Below are positions 32,697-42,829 of a stretch of 64,000 bases of DNA, in pieces. Within the stretch, counting starts at the first letter, position 1. Every line of letters begins with the position of its first letter. The stretch covers positions 1-64,000 of the forward strand of contig ONOH01000003.1 in assembly GCA_900319405.1 (NCBI GenBank), in the 5' to 3' direction. This stretch comes from an uncultured Bacteroidales bacterium (GTDB lineage Bacteria > Bacteroidota > Bacteroidia > Bacteroidales > UBA932). The position numbers and the translations under genes are program-made. A model generated the notes under the pieces. It saw only the letters and a program-made list of their open reading frames with translations. It did no database searches and was not told where the DNA came from.

Positions 32697-32770
32697 TATT
32701 TGTAAAGGTTTCGTCTTTTGGTGCGAATTATTTGCCAAAACGGAATAATGATTCATTCGTTCATAAAACT

Positions 32771-34057
32771 ATGAAACAACGTATTTTTACTCTATTTATC
32801 ACTCTGACAGCCTTGTTTGTTGCCTGTACCAAAGCGCCGGTGGCGTCCGAGGATATGACCCCGGAAGAACCCGAAGCTCCCGCCATCGAAGAGGAGAGCC
32901 CGCTGCAGGTATCGCCCATCCGCCTTTCCACGCCCGAGAAGAGTGTGGCCCTGTCTGGAAATGAATTCGGCAAAAAGGTCTTCTCCTGCCTGGTGGAAGA
33001 CACCGGAGGGAAGGACATCCTTTTCTCTCCCCTGAGCCTTTCGCTGGACCTGGCCGTTTGTGCAAGCGGTGCCTCGGGCAACACGCAGACGCAGATGTAT
33101 ACGGCCATGGGGTTTGCCGACAAAGACCCGGAGACCATAGCCGACTACTACCAAAAGATGACAGAGGCCTTGCAAACGGCAGATCCGGGCGTCCGCTTTA
33201 CCAGCGCCAACTCTATCTGGGTTCATCATGATTATACCTTGAGAGATGCTTATGTGAAACATGCAAAAAACCGCTACGACGCACATGTCCAATCCTTGGA
33301 TTTAAGTGTCAAGGAGAGCCTGGGCTTGATCAACTCCTGGTGTAAGGAAAAGACAGAAGGCCTGATAGACAAGATGCTCGATGACAGCCAGGACCCCAGA
33401 TTGCCCAGCGCGGCTTACCTTCTCAACGCCATTTATTTTCAAGGCGGCTGGTCCAAGGCGTTCGATGAGAAAACACAGGATGCCGTGTTCCACTCGGCAA
33501 AAGGAGACCGTATGGCAACCTACATGCAAGGAGTGGAGTATTATGGGTATCGGGAAAAAGAGAAAGTTCGGATGGTTTCCGTCAACTATGGCGGCGGTTT
33601 GTACCAACTGGTGATAGCCCTTCCCGACATCGGTGTTTCCACCACAGAAGCGCTTGCATCTTTGGAGCCAAATGATTTCTTCGGTCTTCCCACGCTGGAC
33701 CCGGTGACTCTGCGTATACCGGAATTTTCCATCTCCTACAATGCCGTCAGCGAATCGCTGATTCCCGCACTGAAGAAATGCGGCATTGTGGACGCTTTTA
33801 GTGGGAATGCATCCTTTGCCGGGATGTTTACCAATAATCTTCAGTTCTTAATTGGAAACGTGGAGCAAAAGAGTTTCATAACCGTAGACCGTAAAGGCAC
33901 GGAAGCCGCAGCTGTTACAATGATAGCGATTTGCAACAGTACGGGAGAAGCGTACACTCCGGTTCCCAGGACCCTGGTTGCAGACCGCCCCTTCCTCTTC
34001 GCCCTGGTAGAGAGTTCATCCCGCACCATTCTGTTCCTGGGGCAGAAGAGCCTGTAG
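32771..34057 (+). CDS. Serpin (serine/cysteine protease inhibitor) lipoprotein
   Basis: 428 residues from the ATG at 32771, whose lipoprotein signal (MKQRIFTLFITLTALFVAC) supports this start over the upstream frame. Serpin features: NEFGKKVFSCLVEDTGGKDI then LFSPLSLSLDLAVCASGASG, NSIWVHHDYTL, the breach/shutter segments, and the C-terminal RPFLFALVESSSRTILFLGQ. The hinge of the reactive-centre loop, GTEAAAVT at 376-383, has small residues as in inhibitory serpins. The loop continues MIAICNSTGEAYTPVPRT, so the P1 residue is uncertain. Tethered to the envelope, it probably protects the cell from host or microbial proteases. Its role fits with the two macroglobulins in this window. Confidence 0.93.
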   Translation: MKQRIFTLFITLTALFVACTKAPVASEDMTPEEPEAPAIEEESPLQVSPIRLSTPEKSVALSGNEFGKKVFSCLVEDTGGKDILFSPLSLSLDLAVCASGASGNTQTQMYTAMGFADKDPETIADYYQKMTEALQTADPGVRFTSANSIWVHHDYTLRDAYVKHAKNRYDAHVQSLDLSVKESLGLINSWCKEKTEGLIDKMLDDSQDPRLPSAAYLLNAIYFQGGWSKAFDEKTQDAVFHSAKGDRMATYMQGVEYYGYREKEKVRMVSVNYGGGLYQLVIALPDIGVSTTEALASLEPNDFFGLPTLDPVTLRIPEFSISYNAVSESLIPALKKCGIVDAFSGNASFAGMFTNNLQFLIGNVEQKSFITVDRKGTEAAAVTMIAICNSTGEAYTPVPRTLVADRPFLFALVESSSRTILFLGQKSL

Positions 34058-34328: not shown

Positions 34329-37061
34329 ATGGCAGAAATTAAGAAAAGAGTCTATCGCTTCGGCGGAAAGCATGCCGAAGGCGACGGCAAGATGAGAGAA
34401 CTGCTGGGAGGCAAGGGTGCCAACCTGGCCGAAATGAATCTCCTGGGAATGCCTGTACCGGCCGGCTTTACCATCACCACCGAATGCTGCACGGAATACT
34501 ACCGTCTGGGTGGCGGTTACACCCCCCAGCTCCGCGCCGAGGTGGCATCGGCCCTGGAAGCTACGGAAAAGATCATGGGCAAGAAGTTCGGTGACGAGAA
34601 CGATCCTCTCCTTGTTAGCTGCCGCTCCGGCGCCCGTTCCTCCATGCCGGGCATGATGGACACCATCCTCAATATCGGCCTGTGCTCCAAGACCATCCCC
34701 GGGATGATCAAGAAGACCGGCAACCCCCGTTTCGTCTATGACGCCTACCGCCGTCTCATCATGATGTATTCCGACGTCGTGATGGAGAAGGCCGAGGGCA
34801 TCGAGCCCGCCGACGGCCAGGGCATCCGCCAGCAGCTGGACCGGATGATGGAAGAGGTCAAGAAGGCCAACGGTTACAAGAGCGACACCGAACTCACCGC
34901 CGACCAGCTCAAAGACCTGGCCGAAGCATTCAAGGTACGCATCAAGGAAGTCCTGGGCGTAGAGTTCCCGGACGATGCCAAGGCCCAGCTGTGGGGCTCC
35001 ATCGGCGGCGTATTCAAGAGCTGGAACGGCAAACGCGCCATCCGCTACCGCCAGATCGAGCACATTCCCGATGACTGGGGAACGGCCGTGAACGTGCAGT
35101 CCATGGTCTTCGGCAACATGGGAGACACCTCCGCCACCGGCGTGGCTTTCTCCCGCAACCCCGCCAACGGCGACAACAAGTTCTACGGTGAGTGGCTCAT
35201 CAACGCCCAGGGCGAAGATGTGGTGGCCGGTATCCGCACCCCCAACCCCCTGAACGAAGCCACCAAGAGCGAGAAGAACAAGAACCTGGCCTCCCTGGAA
35301 AAGGCCATGCCCGAGGTTTACAAAGAGCTGGACGACATCCGCAAGCACCTGGAAGACCACTTCCACGACATGCAGGACATCGAGTTCACCATCCAGGAAG
35401 GCAAGCTGTGGATGCTGCAGTGCCGCGTGGGCAAGCGCACCGGCCTGGCCGCCCTGCAGATGGCCGTGGATATGGTAGAGGAAGGCCTCATCGACGAGAA
35501 GACCGCCGTGATGCGCCTGGCCCCCGGCCAGCTGGACGAGGTCCTTCACCCCATCCTGGACCCGGCCTCCGAGAAGAAGGCCACCGTCCTGGCACAGGGT
35601 CTGCCCGCTTCCCCGGGCGGTGCCGTAGGCCAGATTGTCTTCACCTCCGAAGACGCCATCCGCTTCAACCAGGCCGGCAAGAAGTGCATCCTGGTCCGTG
35701 AAGAGACTTCCCCCGAAGACATCGACGGCATGCACGCCTCCGTGGGTATCCTCACCGAGCGCGGCGGCATGACCTCCCACGCCGCCCTGGTGGCCCGTGG
35801 CTGGGGCAAGTGCTGCATCGTAGGCTGCGACGCCCTCAAGATCAACTTCAAGACCAAGACCGTCAGCTTCGCCGGTGTGGACAAGACCTTCAAGGAGGGA
35901 GATTTCCTTTCCCTGAACGGCGCCAAGGGCCTGGTGTACGAAGGCGCCATCGAAACGATGGACGCTTCCGAGAACCCCCTCTTCGGCAAATTCATGTCCA
36001 TGTGCGACAAGTTCCGCAAGCTGGGCATCCGCACCAATGCCGACACTCCGGAGGATGCCGCCCGCGCCCTTAAGTTCGGCGCCCAGGGTATCGGCCTGTT
36101 CCGTATCGAGCACATGTTCTATGGCCGCAACTCCGAGCAGCCGCTCTCCAAGCTCCGCAAGATGATCCTCTGCAACACCGACGAGGAGCGCAAGTCCGCC
36201 CTCGCAGAGCTGGAACCTTATATGAAGGCCGCCGTCAAGGAAACCCTCCGCGTGATGGATGGCAAGCCGGTGGTGTTCCGACTGCTGGATCCGCCGCTTC
36301 ATGAGTTCGTTCCCCAGGGTGAGGACAAGAAGAAGGAACTGGCCAAGGATCTGGGCATCTCCGTGAAGGAAGTGGAGAAGCGTGGAGAAAGCCTGCATGA
36401 GGTGAACCCGATGATGGGTCACCGCGGCGTCCGTCTGCACGTGAGTTTCCCGCTCATCGCCGAAACCCAGTACCGCGCCATCTTCGCCGCCACCGCCGAA
36501 CTCCAGAAGGAAGGCCTGCACCCGCATCCGGAGATCATGATCCCCGTCACCATCAGCGCCCGTGAGCTCAGCTTCCAGAAGGTGATCTGCGACCGCATCA
36601 AGGCCGAGGTAGAGGCCAAGACCGCCCAGCTCATCGACTACCAGTTCGGTACGATGATTGAAATCCCCCGCGCCGCCCTCACGGCCGACCGCATGGCCCG
36701 TTCCGCGCAGTTCTTCAGCTTCGGCACCAACGACCTCACCCAGATGACCTTCGGCTTCAGCCGTGACGATATCGGCACCTTCATGGGTGACTACCTGGGC
36801 AACAAGATCCTCGATGCGGATCCGTTCCAGACCATCGACACCAAGGCCGTCGGCCAGCTGGTCAAGATTGGCGTAGAACGTGGCCGCAGCTGCCGCAAGG
36901 ACCTCCAGTGCGGTATCTGCGGAGAGCACGGCGGAGACCCCAAGTCCATCGAGTTCTTCAACACCATCGGCATCGACTATGTGAGCTGCTCACCGTTCCG
37001 CGTGCCCATCGCCCGCCTCGCTGCGGCCCAGGCCCAGATCAAGCAGAACCCGAACGCGTAA
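34329..37061 (+). CDS. ppdK: Pyruvate, phosphate dikinase
   Basis: 910 residues, full length for the family. N-terminal nucleotide-binding domain (VYRFGGKHAEGDGKMRELLG, ISS-type GMPVPAGFTITTE, SCRSGARSSMPGMMDTILNIG), central phosphohistidine domain with His484 in GGMTSHAALVARGW, and C-terminal PEP/pyruvate domain (NPMMGHRGVRL, FGTNDLTQMTFGFSRDD, CGICGEHGGDP). It interconverts pyruvate and PEP with ATP and phosphate in the cytosol. The last codons after AAAQAQI (KQNPNA, stop) come from an inserted element. A second copy of the 3' end, encoding ARLAAAQAQILQSK and a stop, lies at 40268-40313 before the apparent original terminator. Confidence 0.97.
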   Translation: MAEIKKRVYRFGGKHAEGDGKMRELLGGKGANLAEMNLLGMPVPAGFTITTECCTEYYRLGGGYTPQLRAEVASALEATEKIMGKKFGDENDPLLVSCRSGARSSMPGMMDTILNIGLCSKTIPGMIKKTGNPRFVYDAYRRLIMMYSDVVMEKAEGIEPADGQGIRQQLDRMMEEVKKANGYKSDTELTADQLKDLAEAFKVRIKEVLGVEFPDDAKAQLWGSIGGVFKSWNGKRAIRYRQIEHIPDDWGTAVNVQSMVFGNMGDTSATGVAFSRNPANGDNKFYGEWLINAQGEDVVAGIRTPNPLNEATKSEKNKNLASLEKAMPEVYKELDDIRKHLEDHFHDMQDIEFTIQEGKLWMLQCRVGKRTGLAALQMAVDMVEEGLIDEKTAVMRLAPGQLDEVLHPILDPASEKKATVLAQGLPASPGGAVGQIVFTSEDAIRFNQAGKKCILVREETSPEDIDGMHASVGILTERGGMTSHAALVARGWGKCCIVGCDALKINFKTKTVSFAGVDKTFKEGDFLSLNGAKGLVYEGAIETMDASENPLFGKFMSMCDKFRKLGIRTNADTPEDAARALKFGAQGIGLFRIEHMFYGRNSEQPLSKLRKMILCNTDEERKSALAELEPYMKAAVKETLRVMDGKPVVFRLLDPPLHEFVPQGEDKKKELAKDLGISVKEVEKRGESLHEVNPMMGHRGVRLHVSFPLIAETQYRAIFAATAELQKEGLHPHPEIMIPVTISARELSFQKVICDRIKAEVEAKTAQLIDYQFGTMIEIPRAALTADRMARSAQFFSFGTNDLTQMTFGFSRDDIGTFMGDYLGNKILDADPFQTIDTKAVGQLVKIGVERGRSCRKDLQCGICGEHGGDPKSIEFFNTIGIDYVSCSPFRVPIARLAAAQAQIKQNPNA
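37010..37040 (+). repeat. Left attachment-site repeat (attL-like) in the ppdK 3' end
   Basis: 31 bp starting CGCCCGCCTCGCTGCGGCCC, repeated at 40268-40298 with a single mismatch (T37022 against C40280). It encodes ARLAAAQAQI in the ppdK frame. Confidence 0.88.
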
Positions 37062-37105
37062 GGGATTCAGGGATTTCGAGAGAGAAACCTCAACTCATTG
37101 ATTGG

Positions 37106-37140
37106 AAGGAGTTTGTCTGGTTGGCAGGCTCCTTCTTTTT
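37106..37140 (+). terminator. Replacement terminator after ppdK, supplied by the element
   Basis: AAGGAG (37106-37111) and CTCCTT (37129-37134) with additional inner pairs, followed by CTTTTTT. Confidence 0.6.
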
Positions 37141-37178
37141 TGCTTTCAGCGTAGGTCGAACCTTTTAAAAGAGAGCGC

Positions 37179-37307
37179 GTTTACAAAGTGTTTACAGTTT
37201 TCAGAACTTGTGTTTACACCTGTAATTCATTTAAACACAAGAAATTATGGCATCTTTCAAAATCTGTGTCAGAGTCAAAAGACAAGATGCTCTGTACCCT
37301 GTTTACA
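37179..37307 (+). repeat. Cluster of TGTTTACA repeats at the element's left end
   Basis: GTTTACA at 37179, TGTTTACA at 37189, 37211 and 37300 (the last inside the integrase gene). Two further copies lie at the right end. The spacing and position fit arm-type binding sites of a tyrosine recombinase. Confidence 0.55.
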
Positions 37308-40012
37308 TCCGAATCACGCACAACAGGCAAGTCGGATACATCAAAACCGACAAATGCGTAGGCAAAGAAGGTCTCAAGAAAGGAGAAGTCGTCGATCCCC
37401 ACGTTCTTGCATACTGCTCCAAGGAAATCCTGCGATACATTGAAGCCTTGAATGCCGTCAATCTCTCTAGTCTCACCGTCTCTGAAATCGTGACATTTCT
37501 GAAAAAAATGGACGAGGAGATTTCTTTCTCGGAGTTTGCCCGGTTCTATGTTCGCCGGATGAGCATTGAATGGAAGATGGAACGAAATGCCAAAAATTAC
37601 CAGCTAGCACTTCGTTCTTTGGAACTCTTTATGGACCGCGACAACATTCTATGCCCACAACTCTCCGGGAAAGTCATTCAAGACTGGATTACGGATTTAG
37701 AAAAGCACTATCATAGAGCCAAAGAAATGTATCCGACTTGTGTGAAGATTATGTTCAACGCCATTTTGGACGAGTATAACGACTACGAAAAGGGCGTAAT
37801 TCGGATAAAAAACAATCCCTTTCGAAAGATTCGGATACCAAAAGCTGATACGCCTGACAAAAGAGCCTTAGACATTGATACGCTGAGGAGATTCTTCTTC
37901 GGAGAATTGCCACCTTCTAAAATGGTCGCACCCTTGCCTGAACTAAGCAGAGATGTTGCCGAAATGGTGTTTTGCCTGGCTGGAATCAACACGGCAGACC
38001 TTTATTTAATGAAGAAGGAGTGCCTACGCGATGGTGTTCTTTGCTATCATCGGCAGAAGACAAAAAAGTTCCGCAGAGACGGCGCTTACCTTGAAATCCG
38101 AGTTCCAGAACGTCTGCTTCCTCTCTTTGAAAAGTATAAGTCAGATGACGAATACCTTTTTTGCTTCAGCAAGCGACACCAGGATCTTGACTGTTTTAAT
38201 ATCAACGTCAACCGAGGACTAAAACGCTATTGTACCCATAATGGGCTTCCTCCAATATGCATCTACAACTTCCGGCACTCATGGGCGACTATCGCCCGGA
38301 ACAATTGCGGAGCTTCTACCGAAGAGGTCGGATTTGCCATGAACTCCTGGATTTTTGATTATCTTTGTATCTGGACCATAAACATCCGCGCCATGATCAG
38401 ACTGACTAAACTCCTTCTTCTTTTTATACTGCCGCTTCTTTACGCATGCACCCAGAAAGAACAGGAGGTGCGAGTCGAATCAGTAACTATAAGTCAGTCT
38501 TCGGTGGAAATAGAAATTGGCAAGACCCTTCAACTTAGCGCCACGGTCTATCCCTCTACGGCAACTAGGAAAGACGTCACCTGGTCCTCCACTAAGTCTT
38601 CTGTGGCGTCTGTTAGTTCATCTGGTCTAGTCACGGCGGCCAGTGAAGGAACGACAACGATAACTGCCTCCGCCGATGGAAAGAAGGGAGAGTGTACCGT
38701 TTCTGTGGAGAAGGGATTTGTAGCGGTATCAGAGGTTAGATTAAATAGAACTGAACTAACTCTCAATATCGGCGAAGAGAATAGGCTGATTGCTACAGTC
38801 CTGCCGGAGGATGCTACGAATAAAACCCTATCATGGACGTCTTACTCTCCCCATGTTGCTACTGTTGATGAGAAAGGATTAATTAAAGGCCTTTCTGTTG
38901 GTAAGGCTCGTATCTTTGTATCAACCAATAACCCAATCATTTCTGCCAGTTGTTTTGTGACTATTACAGAACCCGTTATAGAATTTGAGGATCCTCTAGT
39001 CGCATTAAAATGTATTGCACATTGGGATACAAATGGAGATCATTTCCTTTCTTTCAAAGAAGCAGAGTCCGTTGAGTCGTTAGGTTCCGTTTTTAACGAA
39101 AATGGAGAATCATCCCACATTGAAAAGTTCAATGAACTAAGGTTTTTTACTGGGCTAAAGAGAATAGAGGAAAAGGCTTTTTACTACTGTGTTAACCTCA
39201 ATGAGATTACTCTTCCTAATAGCATTGAGTCCATCGGAGAAATGGCTTTCTATGCAAATGTCAACCTAGAGCATCTTACTATTCCGAATACTGTTTGTTC
39301 CATTGAGTCCGGTGCTTTTGGCGACTGTCGAAGATTACGAGAGATAGAGCTCCCGAAGGGTTTGAAAAGAATTGAAAAAGGGACCTTCGTTCGATGTCAG
39401 AGTATGGAGAGCATATCTTTTTTATGTGATGAATTAGAAATGATTGAAGAGAGTTCTTTTTTACAATGCGTTTCTTTAACCTCCATTTCACTGCCTGATT
39501 CAGTAAAGGAGATTGGTGATGGAGCTTTCTCCAATTGTTTCAATCTTAAAACGGTTTGCTTTCCTGAATCACTTGAACAAATGGGAGACAAAGTATTTTG
39601 GCTTTGTAATAGACTTGAGAAGCTATCCGGAAAAAACACTTCGGAAGATGGACGATGTTATGTGCTCAATGGGGAGTTAAAAGGGTTCGCTCAGGAAGGG
39701 CTAACATCCTATTCTTTACCGGTAGGAATAAGAAAAATAACGAGCGAATTCTTTTATTCGTGCTCTATGTTAACTTCAATTGCTCTTCCCAAGTCAATTG
39801 AACAAATCGGAGGATATGCATTTCATCATTGTGATATGCTGACAACTGTGTACTGCTATGCCAATAGGCCTCCAAAAGTCGAAACGCCCATCGATTTATC
39901 ATCTGTTCCACTCTCAAATCTCTATGTACCGGACGAAAGTGTAGACACTTATAAGATTGATGATGGTTGGAAATGGTATGCCGATTATATAAGACCAATT
40001 AGTGAATTATAA
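37247..40012 (+). CDS. In-frame fusion: truncated tyrosine recombinase plus BspA-like lipoprotein
   Basis: A single 921-codon frame. Residues 1-about 366 are a Bacteroidetes tyrosine recombinase: arm-binding domain (MASFKICVRVKRQDALYPVY), SAM-like core (FSEFARFYVRRMSIEWKMER), LAGINTADLYLMKKE, the YHRQKTKKF lysine box, and the arginine box YNFRHSWATIARNN. It stops at EEVGFAMN, exactly where the second histidine and later the nucleophilic tyrosine should follow. The frame then passes through promoter-like DNA into a lipoprotein signal at codon 383. The recombinase half should be inactive for strand cleavage. The lipoprotein may be made from the fused frame, but more likely from its own start at 38393. 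The junction is near 38346. Confidence 0.8.
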   Translation: MASFKICVRVKRQDALYPVYIRITHNRQVGYIKTDKCVGKEGLKKGEVVDPHVLAYCSKEILRYIEALNAVNLSSLTVSEIVTFLKKMDEEISFSEFARFYVRRMSIEWKMERNAKNYQLALRSLELFMDRDNILCPQLSGKVIQDWITDLEKHYHRAKEMYPTCVKIMFNAILDEYNDYEKGVIRIKNNPFRKIRIPKADTPDKRALDIDTLRRFFFGELPPSKMVAPLPELSRDVAEMVFCLAGINTADLYLMKKECLRDGVLCYHRQKTKKFRRDGAYLEIRVPERLLPLFEKYKSDDEYLFCFSKRHQDLDCFNINVNRGLKRYCTHNGLPPICIYNFRHSWATIARNNCGASTEEVGFAMNSWIFDYLCIWTINIRAMIRLTKLLLLFILPLLYACTQKEQEVRVESVTISQSSVEIEIGKTLQLSATVYPSTATRKDVTWSSTKSSVASVSSSGLVTAASEGTTTITASADGKKGECTVSVEKGFVAVSEVRLNRTELTLNIGEENRLIATVLPEDATNKTLSWTSYSPHVATVDEKGLIKGLSVGKARIFVSTNNPIISASCFVTITEPVIEFEDPLVALKCIAHWDTNGDHFLSFKEAESVESLGSVFNENGESSHIEKFNELRFFTGLKRIEEKAFYYCVNLNEITLPNSIESIGEMAFYANVNLEHLTIPNTVCSIESGAFGDCRRLREIELPKGLKRIEKGTFVRCQSMESISFLCDELEMIEESSFLQCVSLTSISLPDSVKEIGDGAFSNCFNLKTVCFPESLEQMGDKVFWLCNRLEKLSGKNTSEDGRCYVLNGELKGFAQEGLTSYSLPVGIRKITSEFFYSCSMLTSIALPKSIEQIGGYAFHHCDMLTTVYCYANRPPKVETPIDLSSVPLSNLYVPDESVDTYKIDDGWKWYADYIRPISEL
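38360..38367 (+). promoter_or_regulatory. -7 box (TATCTTTG) of the BspA-like lipoprotein, inside the fused frame
   Basis: TATCTTTG lies 25 bp upstream of the lipoprotein ATG and right after the recombinase/lipoprotein junction. A TTTG at 38333-38336 is 23 bp away, slightly too far, and lies within the recombinase part. Confidence 0.55.
38393..40012 (+). CDS. BspA-like surface lipoprotein (Big2 and leucine-rich repeats), internal start
   Basis: 539 residues from the ATG at 38393, starting with a lipoprotein signal (MIRLTKLLLLFILPLLYAC). This internal start is preferred over the fused upstream start because the signal peptide and a promoter box lie here. Two Big2-type immunoglobulin-like domains follow (VTISQSSVEIEIGKTLQLSA with TWSSTKSSVASVSSSGLVTA; VRLNRTELTLNIGEENRLIA with LSWTSYSPHVATVDEKGL). 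BspA-type leucine-rich repeats of about 23 residues then run to the end (GLKRIEEKAFYYCVNLNEIT, SIESIGEMAFYANVNLEHLT, SVKEIGDGAFSNCFNLKTVC). Such proteins are surface adhesins or binding proteins. It appears to be the cargo of the ppdK element. Confidence 0.8.
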   Translation: MIRLTKLLLLFILPLLYACTQKEQEVRVESVTISQSSVEIEIGKTLQLSATVYPSTATRKDVTWSSTKSSVASVSSSGLVTAASEGTTTITASADGKKGECTVSVEKGFVAVSEVRLNRTELTLNIGEENRLIATVLPEDATNKTLSWTSYSPHVATVDEKGLIKGLSVGKARIFVSTNNPIISASCFVTITEPVIEFEDPLVALKCIAHWDTNGDHFLSFKEAESVESLGSVFNENGESSHIEKFNELRFFTGLKRIEEKAFYYCVNLNEITLPNSIESIGEMAFYANVNLEHLTIPNTVCSIESGAFGDCRRLREIELPKGLKRIEKGTFVRCQSMESISFLCDELEMIEESSFLQCVSLTSISLPDSVKEIGDGAFSNCFNLKTVCFPESLEQMGDKVFWLCNRLEKLSGKNTSEDGRCYVLNGELKGFAQEGLTSYSLPVGIRKITSEFFYSCSMLTSIALPKSIEQIGGYAFHHCDMLTTVYCYANRPPKVETPIDLSSVPLSNLYVPDESVDTYKIDDGWKWYADYIRPISEL

Positions 40013-40222
40013 AGTGAATTTAGACATTCGATAATGCTCTATCAATCAACCATTTAATGGTTAACTAAATATTTATACAGATAGAATAGGGGTTATCGTG
40101 AAATTCCTGAAAAAAGCGACAAGGCCATCTTGGATTCTTCAGCGAGATTGACGACCTTTGTTATTGACAAACACAAGAACCGAGATACTGGAAACTCGAG
40201 CAAACGGCAGTTTTTAGGGCAT

Positions 40223-40241
40223 TGTTTACAGTATGTTTACA
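40223..40241 (+). repeat. TGTTTACA repeats at the element's right end
   Basis: Two copies, 40223-40230 and 40234-40241, 27 bp inside the attR-like repeat. Together with the left cluster they frame the element. Confidence 0.55.
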
Positions 40242-40267
40242 GCGCGAACGTAAGTGATTGATTTTCA

Positions 40268-40298
40268 CGCCCGCCTCGCCGCGGCCCAGGCCCAGATC
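40268..40298 (+). repeat. Right attachment-site repeat (attR-like)
   Basis: Matches 37010-37040 at 30 of 31 positions. Continued, it reads ARLAAAQAQILQSK and a TAA stop, the apparent original C-terminus of ppdK. Confidence 0.88.
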
Positions 40299-40332
40299 CT
40301 GCAGAGCAAGTAAGAGCTGAATCTTTCCCCGA

Positions 40333-40360
40333 AAACCGGCCTCCCTGGGCCGGTTTTTTT
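40333..40360 (+). terminator. Original ppdK terminator, also facing the GH53 gene
   Basis: AAACCGGCC, loop TCCCTG, GGCCGGTTT followed by a run of T; the mirror side has TTTTC, so it can work for the convergent GH53 gene as well. Confidence 0.85.
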
Positions 40361-40364
40361 GTTG

Positions 40365-41522
40365 TTACGGGGCGAAGACGTCCAGGACGGAGGTCGGGGC
40401 TCCGGCGGGAGTGAAGGCACCCTGGTCGTAGGCATTCCAGGGACGGGTCTGGGGCGTGCCCGTGTACTTGGTGAGTTCGGCCGGTTTGGAATAGATGTCG
40501 GGCTTCCAGCTTCCGTCCACCTCCGGCTCCCAATAGAAGACGCCGGCGCATTGGTCCAGGTTCCGGACCTCGTCCATAAAGGATTTCAGAATCGACCGGG
40601 CCGTGGTTTCGGAAGCCTGTGTCCTGACACCGGTCTCGGCTATCATCACGGGGACTCCGTAATCGGCCATCACCTTTTTTATATAGGCGAGGGCGTACTG
40701 GTTCATTTCCGCGGGGGTGAGGCTTTTTTCCTTGCCGTCTATCCACATCTTGCTTTCGTACTGGGGGTAGTGGGAGAAGGCAATCATATCGAACTTTCCG
40801 CCCTTGGCCTTGAAATCCTCCAGCCACATGGGGTTTCCATAGGAGGCGCTGAAAAAGGCGCTGTTCAGGTGCGGCATCACAAAGGCCGACGGATACACCG
40901 ACTTGGCGGCCTCGTAACCGGCGTTATATAGCCTGACAAAGTTCGCCAGGTCTATCCGCTCGTTCTTCCAGACGGCTTGCCCGGCCGGATAAAGCATCCC
41001 TTCGCGGGTCTCGTTGCCAATCTGCACCCACTTCACCTCCACGCCGGCGCTCTTGAGCGCGGCCAACACGTCCCGGGTATGCCCGCTGACGTGCGCGACC
41101 ATTTTCTCCGGATCGGACACATCCGCCTTCCAGGCCGACGGTACCAGCTGGCGGGAGGGGTCGGCAAAGAAATCGCTGTAATGGAAGTCTATCATCAGGG
41201 ACATTCCGGCGGCCTTAACTTTTCGGGCGACGTTCAGCACGTCTTCCCGGCCGCTCCAGCCGCCATAAGGATCCACCCAGACGCGCAGGCGGATGGCGTT
41301 GAAGCCGCAGTCCTTGAGCACCTCGAGAAGGGGTGCCGCCGTACCGTCCTTTTTCTTGAAGCTGCGGCCACCTGCCTCCATTTCAGAGGCCCAGCTGATA
41401 TCGGCCCCCCGGGCAAAAGCATCGGAGGGAGCGGGCTCCGATTCAGGTTCCGGAGAGGGTTTGACGGAAGATCCGCAGGAGAGAAAGGCAAGCAGCGCTG
41501 CCAGGAAAGCTGTTTTTTTCAT
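40365..41522 (-). CDS. GH53 endo-beta-1,4-galactanase lipoprotein
   Basis: 385 residues with a lipoprotein signal (MKKTAFLAALLAFLSC) and a Pro/Glu linker. The GH53 barrel starts FARGADISWASEMEAGG and includes FNAIRLRVWVDPYGG, MIDFHYSDFFADP, the acid/base Glu171 in VQIGNETREG, and the nucleophile Glu296 in PVMIAETGVR. The C-terminal FYWEPEVDGSW is also typical. It cleaves beta-1,4-galactan side chains of pectin, probably at the cell surface. It is a single gene, facing the ppdK element across a shared terminator. Confidence 0.95.
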   Translation of the reverse strand: MKKTAFLAALLAFLSCGSSVKPSPEPESEPAPSDAFARGADISWASEMEAGGRSFKKKDGTAAPLLEVLKDCGFNAIRLRVWVDPYGGWSGREDVLNVARKVKAAGMSLMIDFHYSDFFADPSRQLVPSAWKADVSDPEKMVAHVSGHTRDVLAALKSAGVEVKWVQIGNETREGMLYPAGQAVWKNERIDLANFVRLYNAGYEAAKSVYPSAFVMPHLNSAFFSASYGNPMWLEDFKAKGGKFDMIAFSHYPQYESKMWIDGKEKSLTPAEMNQYALAYIKKVMADYGVPVMIAETGVRTQASETTARSILKSFMDEVRNLDQCAGVFYWEPEVDGSWKPDIYSKPAELTKYTGTPQTRPWNAYDQGAFTPAGAPTSVLDVFAP

Positions 41523-41564
41523 CGTTCAAAGTTAGGGATTCGGTAGCGGAAATCAAAGAGAAGG

Positions 41565-42212
41565 CTAGCGGTACAATTCGCGAAGGACGGCCAGGGACCT
41601 GACCTGGACAGACTGTTCCGTATGATAGGAAAGATACTGTAAAAGACAGTCGCAGAGTTCGTTCCGTGCAACGCCGCTCAGGGGCACGAGCATACTTTCC
41701 CCGAAGTCTTTTTCCAGGAAAAGTTTCAGTTCCCGAAGCTGTTCCTTGGCAAAAGGGGCGATATCGTCAAAGCCCGGCCGGAAACCGAGGGCCCCGGCCA
41801 GTTCCAGGAGGAAACGGATATGGAAATTGGCAAAGTCGCTTTCCAGTTCGTTCAGGGTAAGGATGGAACCCAGGCACCATTCGTACAGGCCATCCTCGTA
41901 ACTGCCGTCCCGCAGAATGCGGAACAGCACCTCCGACAGGAAGAGGGTCATCGTATTCTTATGAAGGTTGCCGCGGATTCCCTGAAGGGCGTCCTTGAGC
42001 CGGATGCCGCGAAGGCTCCAAAGGGTGGATTTGGGGTTTTCCACCACATCGGCCTCCAGAATATTGAGCGGGAGGAAGAGGGCCATCCCGGCCTTTTTTC
42101 CGGGCCTTACCAGAAAGCCGCGCCGGCCGTGTTCGCGCGAAAGGGTGTGCACCACAAGCGCGTTCTCCCCCACCTTGGTGGTGGCCAGCACAATGAGTTC
42201 GATATTATCCAC
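41565..42212 (-). CDS. recO: DNA repair protein RecO
   Basis: 215 residues starting with GTG at 42212 (MDNIELIVLATTKVGENALV). The OB-fold N-terminus (VHTLSREHGRRGFLVRPG) and helical C-terminus (LLELAGALGFRPGFDDIAPF) match the Bacteroidetes RecO form, which lacks the zinc cysteines at this length. RecO loads RecA on SSB-coated DNA with RecR. It overlaps the end of rdgB by eight bases, so translation is probably coupled. Confidence 0.9.
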   Translation of the reverse strand: MDNIELIVLATTKVGENALVVHTLSREHGRRGFLVRPGKKAGMALFLPLNILEADVVENPKSTLWSLRGIRLKDALQGIRGNLHKNTMTLFLSEVLFRILRDGSYEDGLYEWCLGSILTLNELESDFANFHIRFLLELAGALGFRPGFDDIAPFAKEQLRELKLFLEKDFGESMLVPLSGVARNELCDCLLQYLSYHTEQSVQVRSLAVLRELYR

Positions 42213-42798
42213 GCAAGAATTCCGCCATGGCGCGAAGGGCCTTTCCGCGGTGTGAGATGCGGTTTTTCACCTCCTCGCCCAGTTGGGCATTGGTCTGGGA
42301 ATATCCCTCCGGGATAAAAATGGGGTCGTAGCCGAAGCCGCCGCTGCCAGCACGCTCCAGGGCGATGTGCCCTTCCATCACCCCGTCGAAAAAATGATGC
42401 CGACCGCCGATGATGAGCGTCACCGAGGTACGGAAACGGGCCGATCGGGGGCAGTCCATCCCGGCCTCTTTCTCCCGGCGGGCCATTTCGGCCAGCAGTT
42501 TGTCCATGTTGGCCCGGGCGTCGTGGCCGGGACCGGCATAGCGGGCCGTCTCCACGCCGGGAGCGCCGCCCAACAAATCGACCTCCAGGCCCGAATCATC
42601 GGCAAAACAATCCAGGCCGGTCCGCTTGTAGATATAGTCTGCCTTCTGCAGGGAATTGGCGCGCAGGGTGGTGCCGGTTTCGGGAATCTCTTCGGTAATT
42701 CCCACTTCTGCGGGAGTAACGAGCTCAAAACCCTCGCCCAGAATTTCTGCCGCTTCCCGGAGTTTTCCGGGATTGCCCGTTGCAAAAACAAGTTTCAT
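42205..42798 (-). CDS. rdgB: RdgB/HAM1-type non-canonical purine NTP pyrophosphatase
   Basis: 197 residues from the ATG at 42798 (MKLVFATGNPGKLREAAEIL). Family motifs: ATGNPGKL, NSLQKADYIYKRTGLDCFAD then DSGLEVDLLGGAPG, GSGGFGYDPIFIPEGY, and ISHRGKAL near the end. The enzyme hydrolyses ITP, XTP and dITP to monophosphates, keeping them out of nucleic acids. A TATCTTTG box (42822-42829) lies 23 bp upstream. recO follows with overlap. Confidence 0.96.
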   Translation of the reverse strand: MKLVFATGNPGKLREAAEILGEGFELVTPAEVGITEEIPETGTTLRANSLQKADYIYKRTGLDCFADDSGLEVDLLGGAPGVETARYAGPGHDARANMDKLLAEMARREKEAGMDCPRSARFRTSVTLIIGGRHHFFDGVMEGHIALERAGSGGFGYDPIFIPEGYSQTNAQLGEEVKNRISHRGKALRAMAEFLRG

Positions 42799-42821
42799 AT
42801 CACGATACCGATTATCCTTCA

Positions 42822-42829
42822 CAAAGATA
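42822..42829 (-). promoter_or_regulatory. -7 box (TATCTTTG) of rdgB-recO
   Basis: On the minus strand, 23 bp before the rdgB ATG; it lies only 13 bp from the oppositely directed box at 42843-42850. Confidence 0.6.

Follow-up and report, generated by a model that had tools for sequence, protein, structure and literature searches.

A 3.26-kb insertion in the 3′ end of ppdK of an uncultured Bacteroidales bacterium, very probably derived from a family of ppdK-site integrase elements

Organization of the ppdK locus

The window studied here is a stretch of 64,000 nucleotides from an uncultured Bacteroidales bacterium of the UBA932 lineage (assembly GCA_900319405.1, contig ONOH01000003.1, positions 1 to 64,000), and our subject is a 3.26-kb insertion in the 3′ end of its ppdK gene, which encodes pyruvate phosphate dikinase. 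Features lie on the forward strand unless stated otherwise. The ppdK gene (34329..37061) is an open reading frame (ORF) of 910 amino acids (aa) with the Pfam domains PPDK_N, PEP-utilizers and PEP-utilizers_C, and its last codons appear to come from the element. A 31-bp sequence in its end, CGCCCGCCTCGCTGCGGCCCAGGCCCAGATC (37010..37040), returns as CGCCCGCCTCGCCGCGGCCCAGGCCCAGATC (40268..40298), identical at 30 of 31 positions with one mismatch, and a repeat search lengthens the match to 38 nt at 92% identity. From this comparison the two copies are referred to as attL and attR. The repeat is in frame with the last ppdK codons. Its left copy leads into the tail KQNPNA and a stop (37041..37061), closing the 910-aa protein, and its right copy reads ARLAAAQAQILQSK and a stop, with the tail ILQSK, of which LQSK and the stop occupy 40299..40313. 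Terminator-like stems (37104-37136 and 40331-40358) stand 3′ of both copies, within the terminator regions 37104..37143 and 40331..40360; the stem scan found four sites where 3.2 were expected in shuffles, and alone it is little proof. Rfam gave no match in 36900-40500 up to E 0.1.

Between the repeats lies one long chimeric ORF of 921 aa (37247-40012). Its residues 1-366 (37247..38344) are a truncated tyrosine integrase by homology and alignment, followed by a junction (38345..38392) and, in the same frame from 38393, by a lipoprotein-like protein (38393..40012). Repeats of the type GTTTACA are found inside both ends of the element: three copies on the left (37179..37219, by repeat search) and TGTTTACAGTATGTTTACAG on the right (40223..40242, by pattern search), both of which may serve as arm sites for an integrase. 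A DNA search further delimits a conserved right end at 40104..40267, of which 40104-40160 is the part common to copies beside tRNA genes.

An empty site in a relative

Genomes, contigs and loci of the comparison set, which comprises 400 genomes of the genus, are cited by our handles (G, C and L). In G142 (contig C91, locus L046), ppdK ends in AQIQQSK, is 89.9% identical to the window gene in nucleotides and has no insert. Directly after it come a GH53 gene, a RecO-like gene and a Ham1-like gene, in the order seen in the right flank of the window (40365..42822, reverse strand), where GH53 was assigned by Pfam and where RecO-like and Ham1-like are what we take the other two to be from their protein sequences. 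The flank proteins of the two genomes are 68% (GH53), 87% (RecO-like) and 84% (Ham1-like) identical, and the window with its insert removed aligns to G142 continuously across the junction. Among the relatives' DNA compared, G142 alone matches the right flank past the ppdK end; GH53 is present at one of the 27 loci searched, that of G142, and other species have other genes beside ppdK. From the empty site it follows that the right tail and terminator should be native to the host, and that the left tail KQNPNA and its terminator were presumably carried in by the element.

The repeat and the insertion are real and not a product of chance, because the repeat holds in frame at the protein level, a relative has the empty site, and a homolog of integrases that use this site lies directly inside the left copy. 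An earlier note, made from the letters of the window alone, had read this locus as a site-specific insertion that regenerates the end of ppdK, and the empty site of G142, together with the related integrases found at ppdK ends, upholds that reading. Direct comparison agrees with its single mismatch in 31 bp, both frames agree with its account of a restored right C-terminus and a left copy running into KQNPNA, and the terminator it saw after the right copy has a terminator-like stem (the left end has one too). The uninterrupted gene that it expected among relatives exists in one of them, G142, with the tail AQIQQSK and GH53 next.

The truncated integrase

The first 366 residues of the ORF align along their full length with tyrosine integrases and match an integrase in PHROGs at E 4e-17. 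Their start lies 186 bp behind the ppdK stop, the distance at other loci with a recognised stop being 168-335 bp. Three relatives in the genus run about 125 residues beyond residue 366, the last of the window integrase. We compared 48 full-length integrases, namely 47 of 114 loci (found as described below) chosen by length and by an FRH filter, plus that of G354, which is in the set twice. The box-III histidine and the catalytic tyrosine, both outside that filter, are invariant in all 48 (39 distinct), and both are missing in the window. Where a first arginine is usual, every one of the 48 has A, G or C; IntDOT likewise lacks this arginine. Lacking the catalytic tyrosine, the element probably cannot move on its own. 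What is left of the integrase reads through without a stop codon.

A profile of three intact C-termini found no remnant of the lost part downstream, and a profile of the integrase found no PDB relatives at E 0.01. The segment 40087-40261 was considered as the C-terminus of the integrase, separated from the rest by the lipoprotein gene, and rejected: the same C-terminal profile finds nothing there, indels between species break the frame, Pfam gave nothing up to E 1, and the best tblastn match to the loci compared has E 0.44. The host assembly, which is 89% complete, holds no second integrase of the ppdK-site family.

The integrase family and its target

Integrase matches at E 1e-12 occur in 38 of the 400 genus genomes, and integrases of at least 45% identity in three besides the window's own, G383, G070 and G354 (47-49%), all of them directly behind ppdK. 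An alignment of these four was used for scans that returned 51 viral and 63 genome loci, some of the 114 being near-identical in sequence. Where at least 400 bp of upstream DNA made a locus assessable, a ppdK end within 600 bp was counted as a ppdK site; it was present at 48 of 57 genome loci (G354 not counted) and 11 of 32 viral loci. The hosts named include Phocaeicola vulgatus ATCC 8482 (L200), Bacteroides congonensis and Prevotella amnii, all three with the integrase at ppdK. The closest integrase among viral and genome loci (L147, 54% identical) lies 204 bp behind ppdK, with the same TGTTTACA repeats in the gap. An equal 54% is reached by an integrase of Parabacteroides distasonis in NZ_OY725834.1, which is 219 kb long and deposited as a plasmid.

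For the 30 assessable loci without ppdK, we searched 700 bp upstream of the integrase for the published 20-bp attB motif GYSGCNCARGCKGCHRTHGA. It occurs with at most two mismatches in 22, five of which (L121-L124 and L158) carry one identical motif, and with three in four more; the best matches in the remaining L139, L165, L210 and L214 have four or more mismatches. The opposite-strand control gave 3 to 8 mismatches.

As the earlier note had anticipated, elements with related integrases are found at other ppdK ends. Contig C9 of G354 (L082, L086-L088) holds what looks like a complete prophage, about 64.9 kb long and with portal and terminase genes and ORFs of 2,000-3,800 aa. A ppdK end borders it on one side and, on the other, a direct repeat of 14 bp by which the ppdK tail is restored. 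A similar phage-like stretch was seen in G070, with no second att (attachment site) in view. A search for a second att behind ppdK at 21 loci, G111 included, gave nothing convincing, the longest shared words being 8-11 bases against 7-16 in five plain shuffles each, with a largest excess of two bases (L101, 11 against 9). Across the 114 integrase loci one downstream repeat of a ppdK end appeared, 11 bases in L149, without the ppdK frame. Integrases of the family that are truncated or internally deleted were seen in L215, L220 and L214, the first two at ppdK, and suggest that decay at the ppdK site recurs.

The ppdK 3′ end is an integration target already known. PvCTn-like conjugative transposons with such integrases insert there; 19 conjugative transposons and five other elements have been placed at the site, and some ppdK loci are stripped of nearly all conjugation genes (Ortanez & Degnan 2024, PMC11005914). 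The view of the earlier note that ppdK is an unusual target thus gives way to a published site. No account of a small, integrase-broken lipoprotein element at ppdK was found in the available text of that paper or among the literature matches listed, among which it was the one paper on ppdK as a target of elements; in one of these searches, no title or abstract start among the matches listed deals with BspA cargo of such islands.

Element ends shared with other species

The spare ppdK end resembles those of other species. The 25 bases after the left repeat (37041-37065) match the ppdK ends of G165, G375 and G410 over 23-25 bp, and the left terminator, called by the stem scan, resembles sequence that G219, G414 and G162 have no more than about 70 bp past their ppdK end. 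We infer that the element picked up gene ends from other species.

The arm-type repeats are less uniform across the family. We rejected TGTTTACA as a family-wide arm motif: it lies between ppdK and the integrase at 3 of 29 loci, the others having TTTAGAG-type repeats. Its density in the 29 loci is nine copies in the 6.8 kb between ppdK and integrase against eight in 139 kb elsewhere. The paired pattern TGTTTACANNNTGTTTACA occurs in 9 of the 400 genomes. In G410, G248, G160 and G375 a ppdK-type att and tail come after it, just as in the window, and in G111 it stands directly after ppdK; in G062, G085 and G158 there is no ppdK within about 1.5 kb, the G085 contig having a ppdK end 4.4 kb off. 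The exact 21-base right-arm pattern was absent from IMG/VR.

The right end, beyond the bare att, was recovered by DNA search in the window and at least nine further genomes of the 400, a lower bound because scoring was limited to two candidates per genome; 85 other genomes, whose matches were very short or covered the bare att, were left out of this count. It adjoins a ppdK-type att in G248, G375, G410, G233 and, in part, G160, and lies elsewhere in G003, G080, G085 and G298. Between the window and G248 its 164 bp are 98.8% identical (57/57 in the part shared with copies beside tRNA genes, 98.1% in the other 107 bp), while ppdK of the same pair is 87.3% identical; for G410 the values are 92.1% and 87.7%. 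Identity of the right end above that of ppdK suggests recent horizontal movement, most clearly for G248. Alternatively, selection on the right end could keep the copies alike.

Interpretation of the insertion

We consider it very probable that the insertion is a 3.26-kb remnant or non-autonomous derivative of the integrase family that targets the ppdK 3′ end, with an integrase of the PvCTn type used by conjugative transposons and phages. It is most likely a cargo-bearing, integrase-broken member of that family, either a relic or mobilisable in trans. The ancestor would have been intact and have entered the 31-bp region by tyrosine recombination, carrying a spare ppdK end acquired from another species of the genus. 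Its interior would then have been lost or replaced by the BspA lipoprotein gene, the C-terminus of the integrase going with most of the element, and an intact integrase of the family might still move it in trans. At 3.26 kb the element is very small, as the earlier note remarked. To that note it must be added that the element is not a compact intact one, given that the integrase ends before its catalytic tyrosine.

Several points weigh against this explanation. By hand count the window core departs from the published attB motif (PMC11005914) at five (left) or six (right) of 20 positions. The nearest integrases are only 54% identical (L147), or 47-49% for the nearest three in the genus, and Pfam at E 0.001 finds no integrase in the 921-aa ORF, which PHROGs did match. 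The empty site with the same flank comes from one relative only, with GH53 at one of 27 loci. KQNPNA is the native ppdK tail in G165, and its element-borne origin in the window rests on the comparison with G142. Finally, the insertion is known from assembled sequence alone.

The element resembles PvCTn-like conjugative transposons in its ppdK 3′-end target, the regenerated stop, a related tyrosine integrase next to attL, and imperfect direct repeats as attL and attR. Those transposons are described as intact, with type IV secretion system (T4SS) genes and a BVU3432-3433 regulatory region (PMC11005914), whereas the insert has one long ORF in which a lipoprotein gene follows a truncated integrase without a change of frame. 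With a single long ORF in 3.2 kb it has no T4SS genes, and among its ORFs no separate one like BVU3432-BVU3433 is evident, although no sequence search was aimed at these. Neither were phage structural or packaging genes seen in the insert, whose one long ORF comprises the integrase part and the lipoprotein. Temperate Bacteroidales phages (the G354 prophage and Bacteroides phages BS-TP4 and BKO1-TP3) share its integrase family, and the G354 prophage its ppdK location, but these phages measure about 64-65 kb against 3.26 kb. Cis-mobilisable elements (CIMEs) carry attL and attR without a working recombinase and are mobilised by a related element. The insert resembles them, judged by sequence, in having cargo between attL and attR and no working recombinase.

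Two finer versions of the preferred explanation differ in whether the element can still move. We lean somewhat towards a dead relic, in which a phage or conjugative transposon integrated and was deleted to 3.2 kb, the lipoprotein gene being left over or having landed later. The truncated integrase fits this version, as do the short or internally deleted integrase remnants at ppdK elsewhere (L215, L220) and the mention of loci stripped of nearly all conjugation genes (PMC11005914). Against it, the att copies and the arm repeats on both sides remain neat and the integrase codons lack stops, so decay would be at most recent.

The same retained att sites and arm repeats speak for the other version, a CIME-like cargo element still moved in trans by the intact ppdK-type integrase of a co-resident phage or transposon, which we hold to be possible and the less probable of the two. 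It draws further support from the right end, nearly identical to that of another species while the host ppdK genes differ, and from G375 (L260, contig C3, 39400-53171), where 13.5 kb with the same right end and no integrase match lie between two copies of the ppdK end. However, the left copy in G375 is at a contig end with no arm repeats found near, and contig ends truncate the loci of G248 and G410, so that an integrase may be out of view in all three. The host assembly yielded no second family integrase, and high identity is also what one would see if the element had arrived recently and then decayed, or if the right end were under constraint.

A local duplication of the ppdK 3′ end around unrelated genes, without site-specific recombination, could draw on the repeat lying within a conserved coding end, but is largely refuted by the empty site and the integrase family, the ppdK-site integrase standing at the expected distance, repeats inside both ends and the same right end at ppdK-type att sites of other species; we regard it as very improbable. 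An assembly chimera is equally hard to credit: the source assembly has 59 contigs and is apparently a metagenome bin, and relatives' contigs end near the site, yet once the insert is taken out, the genes on either side of the junction stand in the order of G142.

The derivative of a ppdK-site family that we favour suggests that, across Bacteroidales, phages, transposons and small cargo derivatives dock at a common site in the ppdK end, and that parts of these elements travel between species together with spare gene ends.

A shared end module beside tRNA genes

The right end contains a module, a block of about 75 bp of which some 60 bp are kept in the window. It ends in GAGATTGACGACCTTTG, which is identical in nine aligned copies; G160 is without the block. 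Each of four genomes checked has one copy. In G003, G080, G085 and G298 the module stands beside tRNA-Met, tRNA-Val, tRNA-Pro or a partial Ala-like tRNA, the last identified by eye. The copy in G003 (contig C43, about 36.2-54.6 kb; L271/L286/L301) is at the integrase-distal end of an 18.3-kb island bounded by two copies of an 85-bp repeat that holds tRNA-Met. This island has an integrase distinct from the window's, together with a Cas9-like gene, a repeat array, a helicase-like gene and two lipoproteins, all named by eye. Of the four copies beside tRNA genes, this is the one for which island boundaries were found. G085 (contig C2) showed no tRNA-att duplicate of at least 15 bp in 23.9 kb. In IMG/VR two exact patterns of the module gave no match, and the bare 17-mer gave three, none with flanking module sequence. 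The reading of the module as a structured RNA found no support in single-sequence folds, which differ among the nine copies.

Tentatively, and with the balance of probability clearly against it, the element may belong to an undescribed set of cargo islands in the genus. Such islands would have in common a module of about 60-75 bp by the integrase-distal att, while differing in att site (ppdK, tRNA-Met, -Val, -Pro or part of an Ala-like tRNA) and relying on two or more integrase types. The module might then be a common recognition site, for packaging, transfer or binding of an accessory factor, in integrase-poor islands that are moved by helpers and whose cargo is surface lipoproteins, joined in one island by a Cas9-like gene. 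The end module beside tRNA genes offers a testable handle on the movement of small surface-protein islands in uncultured gut Bacteroidales.

The lipoprotein cargo and neighbouring genes

The cargo protein has two Big_2 stretches and BspA-type leucine-rich repeats by Pfam, and a lipoprotein signal recognised by eye. It is like BspA-like surface lipoproteins in its Big_2 and LRR_5 domains and its lipoprotein-like N-terminus, and differs in its setting, being cargo of an integrated element and coming right after a broken integrase. The junction ahead of its ATG contains TATCTTTG at 38360, which resembles the Bacteroidota −7 box, TAnnTTTG; such boxes number 29 on both strands of the 64 kb. The cargo gene probably has a promoter of its own.

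Just upstream of ppdK, a serpin-like lipoprotein gene (32732-34057) was noted by eye; among 27 loci, pairing of a serpin with ppdK elements was limited to a 27% match in G111. BspA genes were absent from 15 other ppdK-downstream loci (L089-L103) by tblastn at E 1e-6. Several lipoprotein-like genes lie in L260 of G375, one with the N-terminus MKRFAFYLGIITALVASCS. At L045 (G111, contig C9), where no integrase of the ppdK-site family was found, a ppdK end is followed by an arm-type repeat identical to the right arm of the window and then, with other genes, by two Big_2/BspA-like lipoprotein genes and a serpin-like gene. At L293 (G085, contig C49), a ppdK end is followed by a lipoprotein/BspA-like gene, and a copy of the window's left end, with terminator and arm repeats, lies 4.4 kb off and not beside ppdK.

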